Shown here in pieces: positions 550 through 6,778 of a stretch of 64,000 bases of DNA (position 1 is the stretch's first letter; each line of letters starts with the position of its first letter). The translations under genes were made by a program, and so were the position numbers. The stretch spans positions 1-64,000 of the forward strand of contig JBDKSB010000012.1 in NCBI GenBank assembly GCA_039683095.1. The letters are read 5' to 3'. Below the pieces are notes generated by a model. It had not been told where the DNA came from and did no database searches. It worked only from the letters and a program-made list of their open reading frames with translations. The DNA comes from Acidobacteriota bacterium. GTDB taxonomy: Bacteria > Acidobacteriota > Aminicenantia > Aminicenantales > Saccharicenantaceae.

Positions 550-1074
550 TCACGGCGCGTCCCCGCGAAACTCTTTCAGCCGTATCTTCCGGGCTAAGTC
601 GCTCCGGATCTTCCTGCGGCTGTACCCAAGCCGACCCCTGACTTGGTTCTCCGTCAATCCGAAGCGCTCCGCCATCTCCCTGCGACTCGCCCCGGCGAGA
701 TGGGCCCGCATCAAGTCCGAGTGCATAACCTCGACCCCCGCGTCCTCGGCCATAATGGCAAGACGGGTGGGATCTGTGATCCTCTTCCGCATCATGTCGT
801 TTCTGGTCACCCGATCAAGCCGACGCCGTCGTGACGCTTCCCGTCGCCAGTAGTCGTATAGCCGCCTGAGAGCAACGAGCCGGCAGAATGACCGGACGCT
901 CTTTTCTCCCCGGTCTGCCCGAATCTCGCCCACCCGCTCGAGGCTCGCATAAACCCTGGCGAGAACCTCCTCCACGAGCGGAGCATCAAAGCCGCACCGG
1001 GCCCGCTTGGCGATGAAGTTCCGCAAGTCCATCTCGCACATCTGCTGGACCGTCCAGCGGTCGAGCTTGGTCAT
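550..1074 (-). CDS. ECF-type sigma-like factor of the mobile element
   Basis: The 174-residue protein is basic and helical. Residues about 30-80 resemble sigma region 2, with a ...SFCRLVALRRLYDYWRR segment. Residues about 128-160 form a clear HTH like sigma region 4 (HLAGASRREMAERFGLTENQ followed by VRGRLGYSRRKIR). ECF factors direct RNA polymerase to alternative promoters. The start ATG overlaps the stop of the upstream zinc-finger gene (ATGA), and no Shine-Dalgarno is seen, so translation is probably coupled. A plain DNA-binding protein of the same fold is the alternative. No anti-sigma factor is recognisable beside it. Confidence 0.6.
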   Translation of the reverse strand: MTKLDRWTVQQMCEMDLRNFIAKRARCGFDAPLVEEVLARVYASLERVGEIRADRGEKSVRSFCRLVALRRLYDYWRREASRRRRLDRVTRNDMMRKRITDPTRLAIMAEDAGVEVMHSDLMRAHLAGASRREMAERFGLTENQVRGRLGYSRRKIRSDLARKIRLKEFRGDAP

Positions 1075-1381: not shown

Positions 1382-1582
1382 CTATGCCCTGCCCTCGGGG
1401 CGATGCAGACGCTCCCATTCCCGTAGCCAATGGAGCAACGACCGCGCCGTCACGGGCACCACGGTTGATGTCCGGCAGGAAGCGCACGAGAACATCACCG
1501 GGATCGGGCCACTATGCTCGGCACGGGGCAGGATCTCGAGGTCGAACGCATGCCCGCAACGACAGCGCCCTCCTCTCATCAT
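1382..1582 (-). CDS. Small zinc-ribbon protein, function unknown
   Basis: This 66-residue protein has a CRCGHAFD knuckle near residue 7 and a CASC knuckle near residue 33, spaced like a short zinc ribbon. The C-terminal half is helical and rich in Arg and Trp. The ATG overlaps the TGA of the upstream 190-residue gene (ATGA), which supports translation as part of that operon. The cysteine pattern is the only functional clue, and it may bind DNA or act as a protein adaptor. Confidence 0.5.
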   Translation of the reverse strand: MMRGGRCRCGHAFDLEILPRAEHSGPIPVMFSCASCRTSTVVPVTARSLLHWLREWERLHRPEGRA

Positions 1583-2151
1583 GGCTCCTCCCCCTGCCCC
1601 CCATCCGTTCGCCCCCCTGGCGCGTCCTGGGGCGCGTCTGGGCCGTCCCCGGCAGGCAGGGAGGCCTTGACGGCCCTCTCGGCAGCTATCTCGGCATCGC
1701 GGATCTCGATATAGCGCGTCAAGGGGATAATCCCGTCATCCTCGCCCTTACCCTTGGCTTGGCGCAGGGTCTCAAGGGCAAGGCAGTTCTGGCGAATCGT
1801 ATTCGTGTACGCTATGAGCGATTTCCCCAGGATAGGGTGCAACTCAAGGGCCCCGTGCTTTAATGAGTCCTGGCGCAGCACCCCGGCCTTGCGGATGTAC
1901 AGAGTCGCCAACTTGATTACGCCTTGAGCTTCGATGAGCGACTCGACAAGCATGGCCGCCTCGGGGGTTATCTTGTCCGGTCCGCCGTGGCGCTCGATCA
2001 GCTCGTCCCGAAGGCGCTGGAGATCCTTGCGGACTTGGGTGAAGGCGCGGCCCGATGGGACGCGTTTGTTGTCAATCCATGAGATGATACCGTGGCGGAC
2101 CCGGCCCTTCTTGGCCAGCTCGACCGCCTCATTCTTGGCCTTTTCGGTCAT
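1579..2151 (-). CDS. Hypothetical protein heading the zinc-finger/sigma operon
   Basis: The 190-residue protein is largely helical. It starts with a basic segment (MTEKAKNEAVELAKKGRVRH), has central helices around residues 65-135, and ends in a Gly/Pro/Asp-rich tail from about residue 168. I do not recognise a family; its size and layout would be compatible with a phage small-terminase-like or DNA-binding protein, but no diagnostic motif is seen. It is the first of four genes joined by 1-4 nt stop/start overlaps (to position 550). The upstream 464 bp carry the repeat array and a 19-bp motif that overlaps a possible promoter. Confidence 0.6.
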   Translation of the reverse strand: MTEKAKNEAVELAKKGRVRHGIISWIDNKRVPSGRAFTQVRKDLQRLRDELIERHGGPDKITPEAAMLVESLIEAQGVIKLATLYIRKAGVLRQDSLKHGALELHPILGKSLIAYTNTIRQNCLALETLRQAKGKGEDDGIIPLTRYIEIRDAEIAAERAVKASLPAGDGPDAPQDAPGGRTDGGQGEEP

Positions 2152-2375: not shown

Positions 2376-2615
2376 GGTTTCCTTGATTCCTTGATGACCC
2401 CCACCCCCATACCCCCAAAACAGCCTTTTTGACCTCATGGGTCCACCCCCCATCAAGGAAACAAGAGAACCTACTATTCTTGGCATTCATATGGGGCGAA
2501 TCTTTAATAAGGTTTCCTTGAAAAGTGCTATCAAGGGAACTACAAGGGAACCTATCCGGAAGGGGGTTTACTTGAAAAAATGGGGGTTTCCTCGAAAGCC
2601 TGTTTTCAAGGGAAC
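2376..2615. repeat. Array of about ten short GGTTTCCTTGA-like repeats
   Basis: Copies or near-copies of GGTTTCCTTGA occur at 2376-2386, 2387-2394 (partial), 2511-2521, 2565-2575 and 2585-2595 on the plus strand. The reverse complement (CAAGGGAACC or CAAGGAAAC type) occurs at 2453-2462, 2462-2471, 2531-2540, 2543-2552 and 2606-2615. The array fills the 464-bp gap immediately after the primase stop codon at 2616. Iteron-like arrays next to replication genes often mark an origin; a regulator-binding array is the alternative. The remainder of the gap (2152-2375) holds the 19-bp motif and no gene I can support. Confidence 0.6.
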
Positions 2616-4631
2616 TCATGGCTTGATCCTGAAGGCCGTGCCGGTCCGGCCGCCCTTGGAAGTAGGAGGGATTTCGATCTCCTCGATGCGGCCCTCGTCG
2701 ATGAGCTGCTTGAGGATCTCGTCGGCGAGCTTGGCCTTGATGCGCGTCGCGCTGAGGATGTCGCTTCGTAGTATCTGCCCGCGCTTGCGAATGATCTTCT
2801 CGATGGTCGCCATTTGCTTGGAGAACCAGTCGAATCGGACCTCCTCTTGGAAGAACCGGGGCAGTTTGGCTTTGATCCATTCGATGACGGTGACAGCGTC
2901 GCGGAAGGATTGTTCGCCAACTTTGAGGGAGCCGTCCTCCGCGAGCTGGAAGAGACAGGCGAGCTTGATGAGCATGACCTCGAGGCGCTGGAAGACGGCC
3001 TGGAGGTCGCCCTCGGTCCGCATGACTTGGCGCATGTGTTCGCGGCCCCACTCCTCCATGAGCGGCAGGATCGGCCGAACGTCTATCTCTTGGTCGGGCT
3101 CCAGGGCGTCAAGCTCCCTCAGCCGGGTCTCAATGCCACGGTCGAGGTAGAGTGGGCTCGGGAGCCGGTAGTCGCGGTCCTGTTCGGGTGCGGGGACGAA
3201 GATAAAACGAGTCCAGATGCCGCCCTCGAAGTCCTTCTTCTTGAGGCTCTCGACGAACCATGTGGCGATGCCGGCGGAGAGGATACTGACGATGGGGTTC
3301 TCGACGACGATCTCCCCGCCATCTCCGACGGTCCAGCGCTTGAAGGCCTTCTTGTAGTCGTAGATATCGACGAGGAACGATGCAAGGCCCCGGTTGTACT
3401 CGGAGCCGAGCTGGAACTCTTTGACCTGGATGAGCTCGCGCCAGATGATGAGGCCCCGCGGGTACTTGTTGAGGATCTTGTAGAGCGCCTCGGGCGTGAA
3501 CGAGTCGGGCAGGAGGAGCGAAGAGTTGACCTCGTTGAGGTAATCGGCGACGACGTCGGTCGTGGTAGACTTCCGGTAATAGGTCGAGGGTGCCAGTAGC
3601 AGAATGTAGAGGTTGAGATTCGTCCGGCGAGGGAACATGAAGTAGAACTTATTGAGGACGCCGGAGAGGAGCGCGATGCCGCTGAAGAGGAGAAAGATCG
3701 GAGAGGCGTCCGTTGACCGGGCGATGGACTCGATGTAGCGGTTGAGGAAGGCGTTGTGGATGACCGGAAAGTCCGCGCCGGTCGGCGCGGACTCGGGTAA
3801 GTTCTCCGATGGCACGGGTTCCGGCTCGGGCTCCTTTGCGTCGAAGACGGGGGCGCTTGCCGCGATGTCCTCGAGGGCCGCCCGGAGCCCCTCCGTGTCT
3901 TGGGCGTCATGCAGTTCGATCCAGTCGGAGATGTCCTGGTCCTTCTCCAGGCCGGGGAGCTGGATGATCTTGACCTCGCGGGCATGGAGGGCGATGTCCT
4001 TGGCCCGCCTGACCGACTCGAACTCATAGCCGGTGTCGAGGCAGATCCGGACAGCCTTGCCCTTGAAAGGCTCCGCGAAATGCGGCCGCCAATGACTGAC
4101 GCCGAAGGGTGTCGTTGTCGCGGTGAGCCCGAGTCGCCTGACGTTGTCCGCGTCCTTCTCGCCCTCGACGAGCCAAACCGGGTCGCCGGCCAGGACTTCT
4201 GGGAGGTGGTAGAGGACCTGGCGGACCCCGGCCATTTTGCGGTCAGCCTTGAACGCCTTGGGCTCAAAGCGCAGGACGCTATAGAGCGGCCTTTTCTCCT
4301 CGTCGGTATAGGTGTAGGTTGCCGAGGGGGCGGGCCTGCCGTGGCCGTTGCCATTGCCGCCGTCGAGGTGGAAGTGCTCCGTTAGCTGGCGGATCGCTTC
4401 GCCCTTCGTCAAGCCCCGCGTCTCCATGAGGTAGTTGATGATGCTGCCGCCCTTCTTGCACGCATGGCAGTACCAGAGCCAGGAGCCCTCCTTTTGGGAG
4501 ACGTGCAAGCTGGGATTCTTATCGGCGTGGAGAGGGCAGAGCGTGTTCTCGCCGACGAAGGCGTGGCCCTCGTCTTCAAGGTATCGGCGGAGGTCGGAGT
4601 GGATGATCTGGTCGATGACTTGGTCGGTCAT
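2616..4631 (-). CDS. Primase-helicase-like replication protein (CHC2 zinc finger, Toprim-like, DUF3987)
   Basis: The 671-residue protein is multidomain. Residues 32-58 are a CHC2-type primase zinc finger (C32, H35, C55, C58). Residues about 150-205 look like a Toprim core with the acid E156 in VEGEKDA; the usual DxD is only partly kept (D199-T-G201). From about 288 to 560 is a DUF3987/helicase-like ATPase; its P-loop reads LLAPSTYYRKST, with Arg where the last Walker-A Gly normally stands. The C-terminal 90 residues look like a winged-helix domain. It probably primes and unwinds element DNA. The downstream DUF5659-like gene order and the adjacent repeat array fit a replication module. The altered Toprim and P-loop residues leave the activity uncertain. 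Confidence 0.8.
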   Translation of the reverse strand: MTDQVIDQIIHSDLRRYLEDEGHAFVGENTLCPLHADKNPSLHVSQKEGSWLWYCHACKKGGSIINYLMETRGLTKGEAIRQLTEHFHLDGGNGNGHGRPAPSATYTYTDEEKRPLYSVLRFEPKAFKADRKMAGVRQVLYHLPEVLAGDPVWLVEGEKDADNVRRLGLTATTTPFGVSHWRPHFAEPFKGKAVRICLDTGYEFESVRRAKDIALHAREVKIIQLPGLEKDQDISDWIELHDAQDTEGLRAALEDIAASAPVFDAKEPEPEPVPSENLPESAPTGADFPVIHNAFLNRYIESIARSTDASPIFLLFSGIALLSGVLNKFYFMFPRRTNLNLYILLLAPSTYYRKSTTTDVVADYLNEVNSSLLLPDSFTPEALYKILNKYPRGLIIWRELIQVKEFQLGSEYNRGLASFLVDIYDYKKAFKRWTVGDGGEIVVENPIVSILSAGIATWFVESLKKKDFEGGIWTRFIFVPAPEQDRDYRLPSPLYLDRGIETRLRELDALEPDQEIDVRPILPLMEEWGREHMRQVMRTEGDLQAVFQRLEVMLIKLACLFQLAEDGSLKVGEQSFRDAVTVIEWIKAKLPRFFQEEVRFDWFSKQMATIEKIIRKRGQILRSDILSATRIKAKLADEILKQLIDEGRIEEIEIPPTSKGGRTGTAFRIKP

Positions 4632-4891
4632 GGACGGCCCCCTCTCGCCATGCCACGCAAGGTTCGCATGTTCGTGAGGAAGGTCTGGGCGGGAACCGCG
4701 CCATCATTGAGATAACTCAGCCGAAAGTCTTCGATGGCTAGGTGCTGGAATATCCAAAACACGCGCCCATCGTGCTCTTCGGTTCCGACCAGGGTGCAGC
4801 CCCTGGATCTCAAGAATGCGGCGAGGCCGATCTCGGAAGTTTTAAGGGAGGGGATTTCGGGGGGGGTTGGACTTTCGCCCTTGGTTTTCAT
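4628..4891 (-). CDS. DUF5659-like small protein
   Basis: The 87-residue protein has the pattern IGLAAFLRSRGCTLVGTEEH, then RVFWIFQH and a C-terminal FLTNMRTLRG helix, which resembles the DUF5659 family found beside primases in phages and integrative elements. Its function is unknown. The stop overlaps the primase start by a few bases (4628-4631), so the two are translated from one message. The family call is from memory of the pattern, not a search. Confidence 0.6.
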   Translation of the reverse strand: MKTKGESPTPPEIPSLKTSEIGLAAFLRSRGCTLVGTEEHDGRVFWIFQHLAIEDFRLSYLNDGAVPAQTFLTNMRTLRGMARGGRP

Positions 4892-4943: not shown

Positions 4944-5234
4944 TTAGGCAGCGGGATGGTTGGCGATTACGACGCTATCCGCGTTCCGCGCCTCGAAAGA
5001 ACGCGCCTCGATCCAGACGCAAATCTTCGCGGGGTGAAATAGGATCTTGCCGCCAATGCGGACGTGCGGGATCTCGCTACGCTTCACCATCTCGTAGATA
5101 GACCATGACGAGAGGTGGAGCTTTTTGGCGAGTTGCCCAACGGAGAGAAGGTCGGGAACCTGGATCGCGGCGGGGCTATCGGCGTTTCCCTTGGCCTTGG
5201 GGCTGAAGAAGTTGCGCCGCTGAATTTCTCTCAC
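4944..5234 (-). CDS. Excisionase/AlpA-type helix-turn-helix protein
   Basis: The 96-residue protein contains a MerR-like/AlpA winged HTH at about residues 29-75: LLSVGQLAKKLHLSSWSIYE, then a VRIGGKILFHPAKICVWIEA strand-and-helix segment typical of HTH_17 excisionase-family proteins. These bind attachment-site or promoter DNA in mobile elements. Translation appears to start at a GTG at 5234 with a poor Shine-Dalgarno; a later start is possible because the first 25 residues are not part of the domain. It leads the minus-strand DUF5659-primase genes and is divergent from a small plus-strand gene. Confidence 0.8.
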   Translation of the reverse strand: MREIQRRNFFSPKAKGNADSPAAIQVPDLLSVGQLAKKLHLSSWSIYEMVKRSEIPHVRIGGKILFHPAKICVWIEARSFEARNADSVVIANHPAA

Positions 5235-5727: not shown

Positions 5728-6195
5728 TTAGGGCTCGGCCTTTTTATCGTCGGGCCCTTTGGCAGGAGCCAAATCGGCCGCCTTTATCGATATTGCCTCG
5801 TCAAGTACTTTACAGTCCTCGAGAACTACGGTTGGCCGCAGGGTGTGAATAAACAATGCTTTCTCAAATGTGCGCAGAAAATCTATTCCAATCAGCACGT
5901 CGTTAGAATTTGGTTCGAGAATCACGACACCAATCTTTTTTACGTCTCCCAGCTGTGCTATTACCTGGGCTGTCAATTTATAGGAACTTCTTCCGTCCGC
6001 AACGGTCACCCCAGAAGTGCCAAATAGGGGTAAACCAAGGGGGAAGGCATGAAGAAGGGGCATACAAACAAAGCCAGAAAAGCCCGTATCAATAATTGCC
6101 TCGAACTCTTGGGGTGTTTGACTAAAAACCCCGCTTAAAAGAATCTTCAGGCGGGGAGCCCCGTCGTTACCTAAAGAGCCAATCTGTTGCGTCAT
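5728..6195 (-). CDS. Retropepsin-like (clan AA) aspartic protease
   Basis: The 155-residue protein has the hallmark IIDTGFSGFV motif with the catalytic Asp at residue 36, a flap-like region, and the hydrophobic VLIGIDFLR strand near residue 105. This is the single-domain bacterial clan AA form that must dimerise to build an active site. No signal peptide is seen, so it should act in the cytoplasm. The start lies inside the upstream gene with a 29-bp overlap and no Shine-Dalgarno, pointing to translational coupling. The C-terminal 25 residues are polar and probably disordered. The substrate is unknown; the obligate upstream partner is the natural candidate. Confidence 0.8.
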   Translation of the reverse strand: MTQQIGSLGNDGAPRLKILLSGVFSQTPQEFEAIIDTGFSGFVCMPLLHAFPLGLPLFGTSGVTVADGRSSYKLTAQVIAQLGDVKKIGVVILEPNSNDVLIGIDFLRTFEKALFIHTLRPTVVLEDCKVLDEAISIKAADLAPAKGPDDKKAEP

Positions 6196-6568: not shown

Positions 6569-6692
6569 TAAAAATTCCAACCTGAACCGAATCCCGCCTG
6601 AAGGTTCCACAAACCTAAAGACCAAAAAACGGCCAAAAACCGCCCTTGAACATCGGCCCATTTTTTGGCGTAAATCGCTGATAATGAAAGAG

Positions 6693-6778
6693 TGCCGGTG
6701 GAGGGAATCGAACCCACACGCCTATCGCTAGGCACAGGATTTTGAGTCCCGCGCGTCTGCCAGTTCCGCCACACCGGC
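6693..6778 (-). tRNA. tRNA-Leu (anticodon CAA)
   Basis: The 86-nt class II tRNA folds with acceptor arm GCCGGTG/CACCGGC, discriminator A, a 5-bp anticodon stem around loop CTCAAAA (anticodon CAA), a long variable arm (CTAGCGATAG type) and a TTCGATT T-loop. CCA is not encoded. Its 3' end marks the probable insertion point of the mobile element to the left. Confidence 0.95.

Follow-up and report, generated by a model that had tools for sequence, protein, structure and literature searches.

In SaPI and PICI elements the replication origin lies directly 3' of the rep gene and is read by the C-terminal domain of Rep (PMC7581432, PMC6092414), and in SCCmec the Cch2 protein binds direct repeats just behind its own gene through its C-terminal domain (PMC7581432). 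The integrated island SGI1 has an iteron origin immediately downstream of rep (PMC7433901), while ORF904 of pRN1 is a primase-helicase with a C-terminal winged helix and an origin 3' of its gene (PMC4234260). The PICMI satellites of Vibrionaceae encode an integrase, AlpA and a DUF3987 primase, and a primase of the DUF3987/DUF5906 type is needed for their replication (PMC10803314). DUF3987 itself has been proposed to be a helicase (PMC5862659).

The locus described here lies in a stretch of 64,000 nucleotides (the window), which is the start of contig C12 in an assembly of 13 contigs and 3.29 Mb. It contains an array of short repeats behind the gene of a DUF3987 primase, and this array very probably serves an integrated phage-like element as its replication origin, bound by the element's own primase-helicase in the manner of the SaPI and PICI origins.

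The repeat array and the primase-helicase

The original prediction of about ten repeat copies filling 240 bp is borne out by ten sites of the GGTTTCCTTGA type (11-mers with up to 3 mismatches), five on the plus and five on the minus strand, all within 2376-2616. The features of the array and of the primase gene are the following (mismatches to GGTTTCCTTGA in brackets).

2376-2616, both orientations: iteron array of ten sites of ~11 bp, proposed replication origin
2376 (0), 2384 (2), 2511 (0), 2565 (1), 2585 (1), plus strand: individual sites
2453 (1), 2461 (3), 2531 (2), 2542 (2), 2606 (2), minus strand: individual sites
2376-2396, plus strand: sites 1-2, a tandem pair at 8-bp spacing that forms one arm of a 22-nt inverted repeat (86%)
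2451-2472, minus strand: sites 3-4, in tandem, 8 bp apart, the other arm of the 22-nt inverted repeat
2473-2510: AT-rich spacer of 38 bp between the site groups, candidate melting site
2511-2616, both orientations: sites 5-10, of which the last overlaps the stop codon of the primase
2616-4631, minus strand: primase of 671 aa with DnaG zinc ribbon, TOPRIM, DUF3987 and C-terminal winged helix
2625-2828, minus strand: the C-terminal winged helix (residues 602-669), which is proposed to read the repeats
1579-2151, minus strand: protein of 190 aa with no assigned function, the next gene after the array

The array had been placed downstream of the primase with its last copy at the stop codon. Both statements hold, with the strand corrected: the primase is encoded on the minus strand, and the site at 2606-2616 overlaps the final base of its stop codon (2616-2618). 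The array occupies about half of the gap between the primase and the next minus-strand gene.

The density of repeats in the array is far above chance. Counting 10-mers with one mismatch, 7 non-overlapping copies are found in the 241-bp array stretch, against a maximum of 4 in 200 Markov sequences and of 5 in 80 stretches of 241 bp from elsewhere in the window. Matches with up to 2 mismatches number 29 in the whole window (11.9 +/- 3.35 in shuffles), and nine of them fall in the array. Scattering of the same repeats around the chromosome had been named as an observation that would speak against the prediction. The 3.29-Mb genome holds 8 exact copies of the word, and reading through their list gave no second cluster, with at most 2 exact copies per 300 bp elsewhere; a genome-wide repeat family was ruled out on this ground.

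The tandem steps in the array are 8, 8 and 11 bp. Two groups of sites (2376-2472 and 2511-2616) flank the spacer, which is 66% AT in a window of 33.5% AT; this grouping was made by eye, and a GC-rich stretch of 54 bp splits the first group. The latter (2397-2450) is the C-tract sequence ACCCCCACCCCCATACCCCC, lying between sites inside the array, and the G-tract run opposite to it might form a quadruplex.

In the primase, Pfam identifies the DnaG zinc ribbon and DUF3987, and the TOPRIM residues EGEKDAD are kept in its relatives. The last 70 residues are predicted to follow the order helix-strand-helix-helix-strand-wing-strand. The best Foldseek matches of this C-terminal domain (model pLDDT 72) are winged-helix DNA binders, with an operator-bound ROK repressor at the top (E 1.1e-4). 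Apart from the TOPRIM and C-terminal domains, the model of the full-length protein is of poor quality, and this includes the helicase part.

The integrated element

The primase and the array belong to an element whose other features are found on the window and on a second contig, C11.

4628-4891, minus strand: small DUF5659 protein, upstream of the primase
4944-5234, minus strand: AlpA/excisionase-like HTH_17 protein
6687-6749: attachment-site repeat inside a tRNA-Leu gene (6692-6778, minus strand), 61 of 63 positions identical to C11:4730-4792
C11:3438-4700: tyrosine integrase, beside the attachment-site repeat at C11:4730-4792
C11:650-2041: TerL gene

The attachment site recurs beside the integrase on C11, and the element therefore spans the ends of C11 and C12. 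Both contigs end, at their position 1 (the window and locus L208, respectively), inside one integrated element. Its length is at least ~11.4 kb plus the gap between the contig ends, for which no overlap was found. With a very small gap between the contigs, the element would measure no more than ~11.4 kb and have a TerL gene but no visible capsid genes. Five further contigs were considered as the missing middle and rejected: all are at least 65 kb long, and the only Phage_portal match is more than 220 kb away. That portal gene (C12:229232-230200, E 2.5e-62) points to a separate prophage in the genome.

If the two contigs join at their starts, as we infer, the main genes, integrase and TerL among them, would run in one direction, in the order AlpA-like, DUF5659, primase, array, small genes, terminase and integrase. 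The genes after the array include a weak match to HNH endonucleases and a weak match to late transcriptional activators. The protein encoded at 550-1074 (minus strand) weakly matches sigma factors and late activators of phages and is a candidate late-gene regulator. A gene for a retropepsin-like aspartyl protease (5728-6195, minus strand; gag-asp_proteas, E 1.6e-5, just below the cut-off) is located between the AlpA-like gene and the attachment site.

Arrays behind homologous primases

Comparison with related elements had been proposed as a way to see whether the array tracks the primase. For this, 160 homologue loci, with primases mostly 22-36% identical to that of the window, were scanned for local repeat arrays by a scheme blind to gene positions, and a locus was counted as a hit if its strongest array started no more than 100 bp ahead of the primase stop or 250 bp past it. 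The first, exploratory set comprised, after dereplication, 95 loci in which any array was present. In 26 of them the strongest array was at the 3' end of the primase (2.84 expected under uniform placement), and in only 4 at the 5' end. The second set (59 dereplicated loci) was collected with other queries, all clusters already seen were then removed, and the rule was fixed beforehand; the top array was at the primase stop in 27 loci (2.08 expected), and among the arrays with a score of at least 7 in 20 of 29 (1.0 expected). Arrays thus occur at the same place behind homologous primases in both sets. The binomial values for uniform placement are below 1e-17 and, because the loci share ancestry, are to be read as "strong" rather than literally.

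In the second set, 36 of the 1125 other ORF 3' ends (3%) carry such an array. With the comparison limited to gene ends that run into non-coding DNA, the proportions are 21/55 for primases (38%) and 17/339 for other genes (5%), and this gap-matched control rules out an artefact of non-coding gaps. In the majority of the homologues no array could be detected at the stop codon of the primase. Strong arrays of 11-16 copies were also seen away from the primase 3' end (L118:2596, L188:3, L154:11114 and L112:2849); these are possibly other origins, CRISPR-like repeats or coding repeats.

Among the nearest DUF3987 or TOPRIM relatives, arrays start within ~100 bp of the stop in L219, L220, L215, L035, L032, L221 and L224. 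L219, L220, L215, L221 and L224 come from the same phylum as the window, and in three of them the array begins at the stop codon itself: TAA followed by GTTCGCAC and then GCGAAC words in L219, TGA followed by GTTCGCTAATTCGCA in L220, and TAGCAGGGTGTTAGCAG in L215. In the nearest homologue (L218, 36% identity), TTGCTATGG words flank a (TA)n/T8 tract ~600 bp downstream of the primase, past a small ORF. No array was found at the primase stop in L112, L051, L223 or the same-genus locus L209, and scans with L035 and L218 as queries gave nothing new. A shared [AG]GTTNSC core for the DUF3987 subfamily (7 matches in the window, 7 in L219, 6 in L220 and 4 in L215 vs 1.26 in the background) was set aside, as its choice was guided by the data and L218 shows it only weakly. 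An array was seen in a single named phage, Salinibacter M8CR30-2, where it lies 430 bp downstream of the primase; the lytic phages Jojan60, Nonagon, Mel-JY34 and Ranunculus show none at the primase stop. A DNA polymerase gene is annotated in the stretches fetched for Jojan60 and Mel-JY34.

The loci with arrays were found in phage contigs and in genomes labelled with many bacterial phyla; Desulfofundulus and Komagataeibacter loci (L064 and L077) are among those where the array is strong. A DnaG-type front end is common to their primases, and the helicase varies (DUF3987, AAA_25, DUF927, VapE-like or D5). All 65 of 65 arrays are mixed in orientation, and their same-strand steps are most often 8-11 bp long, close to one turn of the helix, as in the window; the repeat words differ between lineages and the anatomy is constant. 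Specific covariation of the C-terminal domain with the repeat word was considered and rejected (Mantel rho 0.043, p 0.054). Words are more similar in pairs of primases with similar C-terminal domains (p ~0.01), and also in pairs whose bodies are similar but whose C-terminal domains are not (p 0.0004), therefore the claim for the C-terminal domain is not specific. Judged from these sequence comparisons, word similarity follows the overall relatedness of the primases and not the C-terminal domain alone, so the domain that reads the repeats is not pinned down. One primase with an AAA_25 helicase (L034:2262) has the word AGTTTCCT, near the GGTTTCCT of the window, despite a C-terminus that looks unrelated.

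Function of the array and comparison with known systems

As a replication origin, the array could work as follows. The primase-helicase of the element would bind the 11-bp sites directly behind its own gene, probably through the modelled C-terminal winged helix, and would assemble as helicase rings on both groups of sites. The AT-rich stretch between the groups, which is short and only 66% AT, would then melt, the primase-helicase would unwind the excised circle, and the primase would prime synthesis by the host polymerase.

The repeats could instead be operators, at which copies of the AlpA-like, XRE or zinc-finger proteins control the late genes starting at 2151. The next gene starts 225-465 bp downstream of the array, and genes for HTH proteins are located in the neighbourhood. 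Against this, the array is associated with the primase stop from one lineage to the next, other gene ends with non-coding DNA are not similarly enriched, and a search of the array for a promoter-like site found none; we consider operators unlikely. Packaging sites usually adjoin terminase genes. The element encodes TerL and the protein with the weak HNH match, so it is probably packaged, and the array might serve as a cos/pac or a partition site, yet its conserved partner is the primase, and the genes scanned include no ParA or ParB, which makes this reading highly improbable. The repeats might also act at the RNA level, terminating the primase message or giving it a structured 3' end, and convergent copies are able to pair into stems. 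Such a role can be given hardly any credence, since the array folds no better than shuffles (z -0.26, DNA parameters), a terminator search within it was negative, and the Rfam matches are to tRNA only. The original prediction spoke of an origin or master control region; the origin is upheld by the arrays behind homologous primases and the lack of clustering elsewhere in the genome, whereas master control goes beyond the evidence.

A wider proposal is that integrative phage-like elements follow a general rule and carry the origin directly behind the gene for their TOPRIM primase-helicase, with one primase front end, interchangeable helicases (DUF3987, AAA_25, DUF927, VapE, D5) and a private repeat word for each initiator. 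We regard the arguments for and against such a rule as evenly balanced. TOPRIM primases with the same anatomy behind their genes are fused to helicases of at least five families. If the rule is true, the origins of uncultivated temperate elements could be read straight from sequence in a simple way, a helicase role of DUF3987 would gain support, and many natural pairs of initiator and repeat would be available for studying how origin specificity changes.

Of the known systems, the SaPIs and PICIs have an initiator helicase gene followed directly by short iterons in two groups around an AT-richer stretch (PMC6092414, PMC7581432). In the window, too, the array is immediately 3' of the proposed initiator gene, and its sites may likewise form two groups around the spacer. 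An integrase (here a tyrosine integrase), an AlpA-like gene and a specific attachment site are present in both. They differ in using an AEP primase with a DUF927 or D5 helicase, whereas here a DnaG/TOPRIM primase is fused to DUF3987 and TerL is present; the likeness is one of layout. With the PICMIs the element shares the trio of integrase, HTH_17/AlpA and DUF3987 primase. The PICMIs are inserted at fis, and iterons are absent from the main text of the paper (PMC10803314), whereas the present element is inserted in tRNA-Leu and adds TerL and regulatory genes. SCCmec Cch2 belongs to another helicase family, with only three iterons and another primase system. The pRN1 origin is a 100-nt stem-loop without iterons, in contrast to the window array, which has no unusual fold. 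SGI1 has 17-bp direct iterons, a DnaA box and a plasmid-type Rep. Iteron plasmid replicons have a Rep_3/RepE-type initiator without a helicase, whereas the initiator candidate here is a zinc-ribbon primase with DUF3987. Within the open-access subset of the literature that was compared, to which older work on phage origins behind primases may have to be added, the extension of the layout to DUF3987/TOPRIM fusions is new. The local element follows the known rep-ori logic, and, if the general rule is true, the origin layout that has been described as unique to PICIs would be a single instance of a far broader design.
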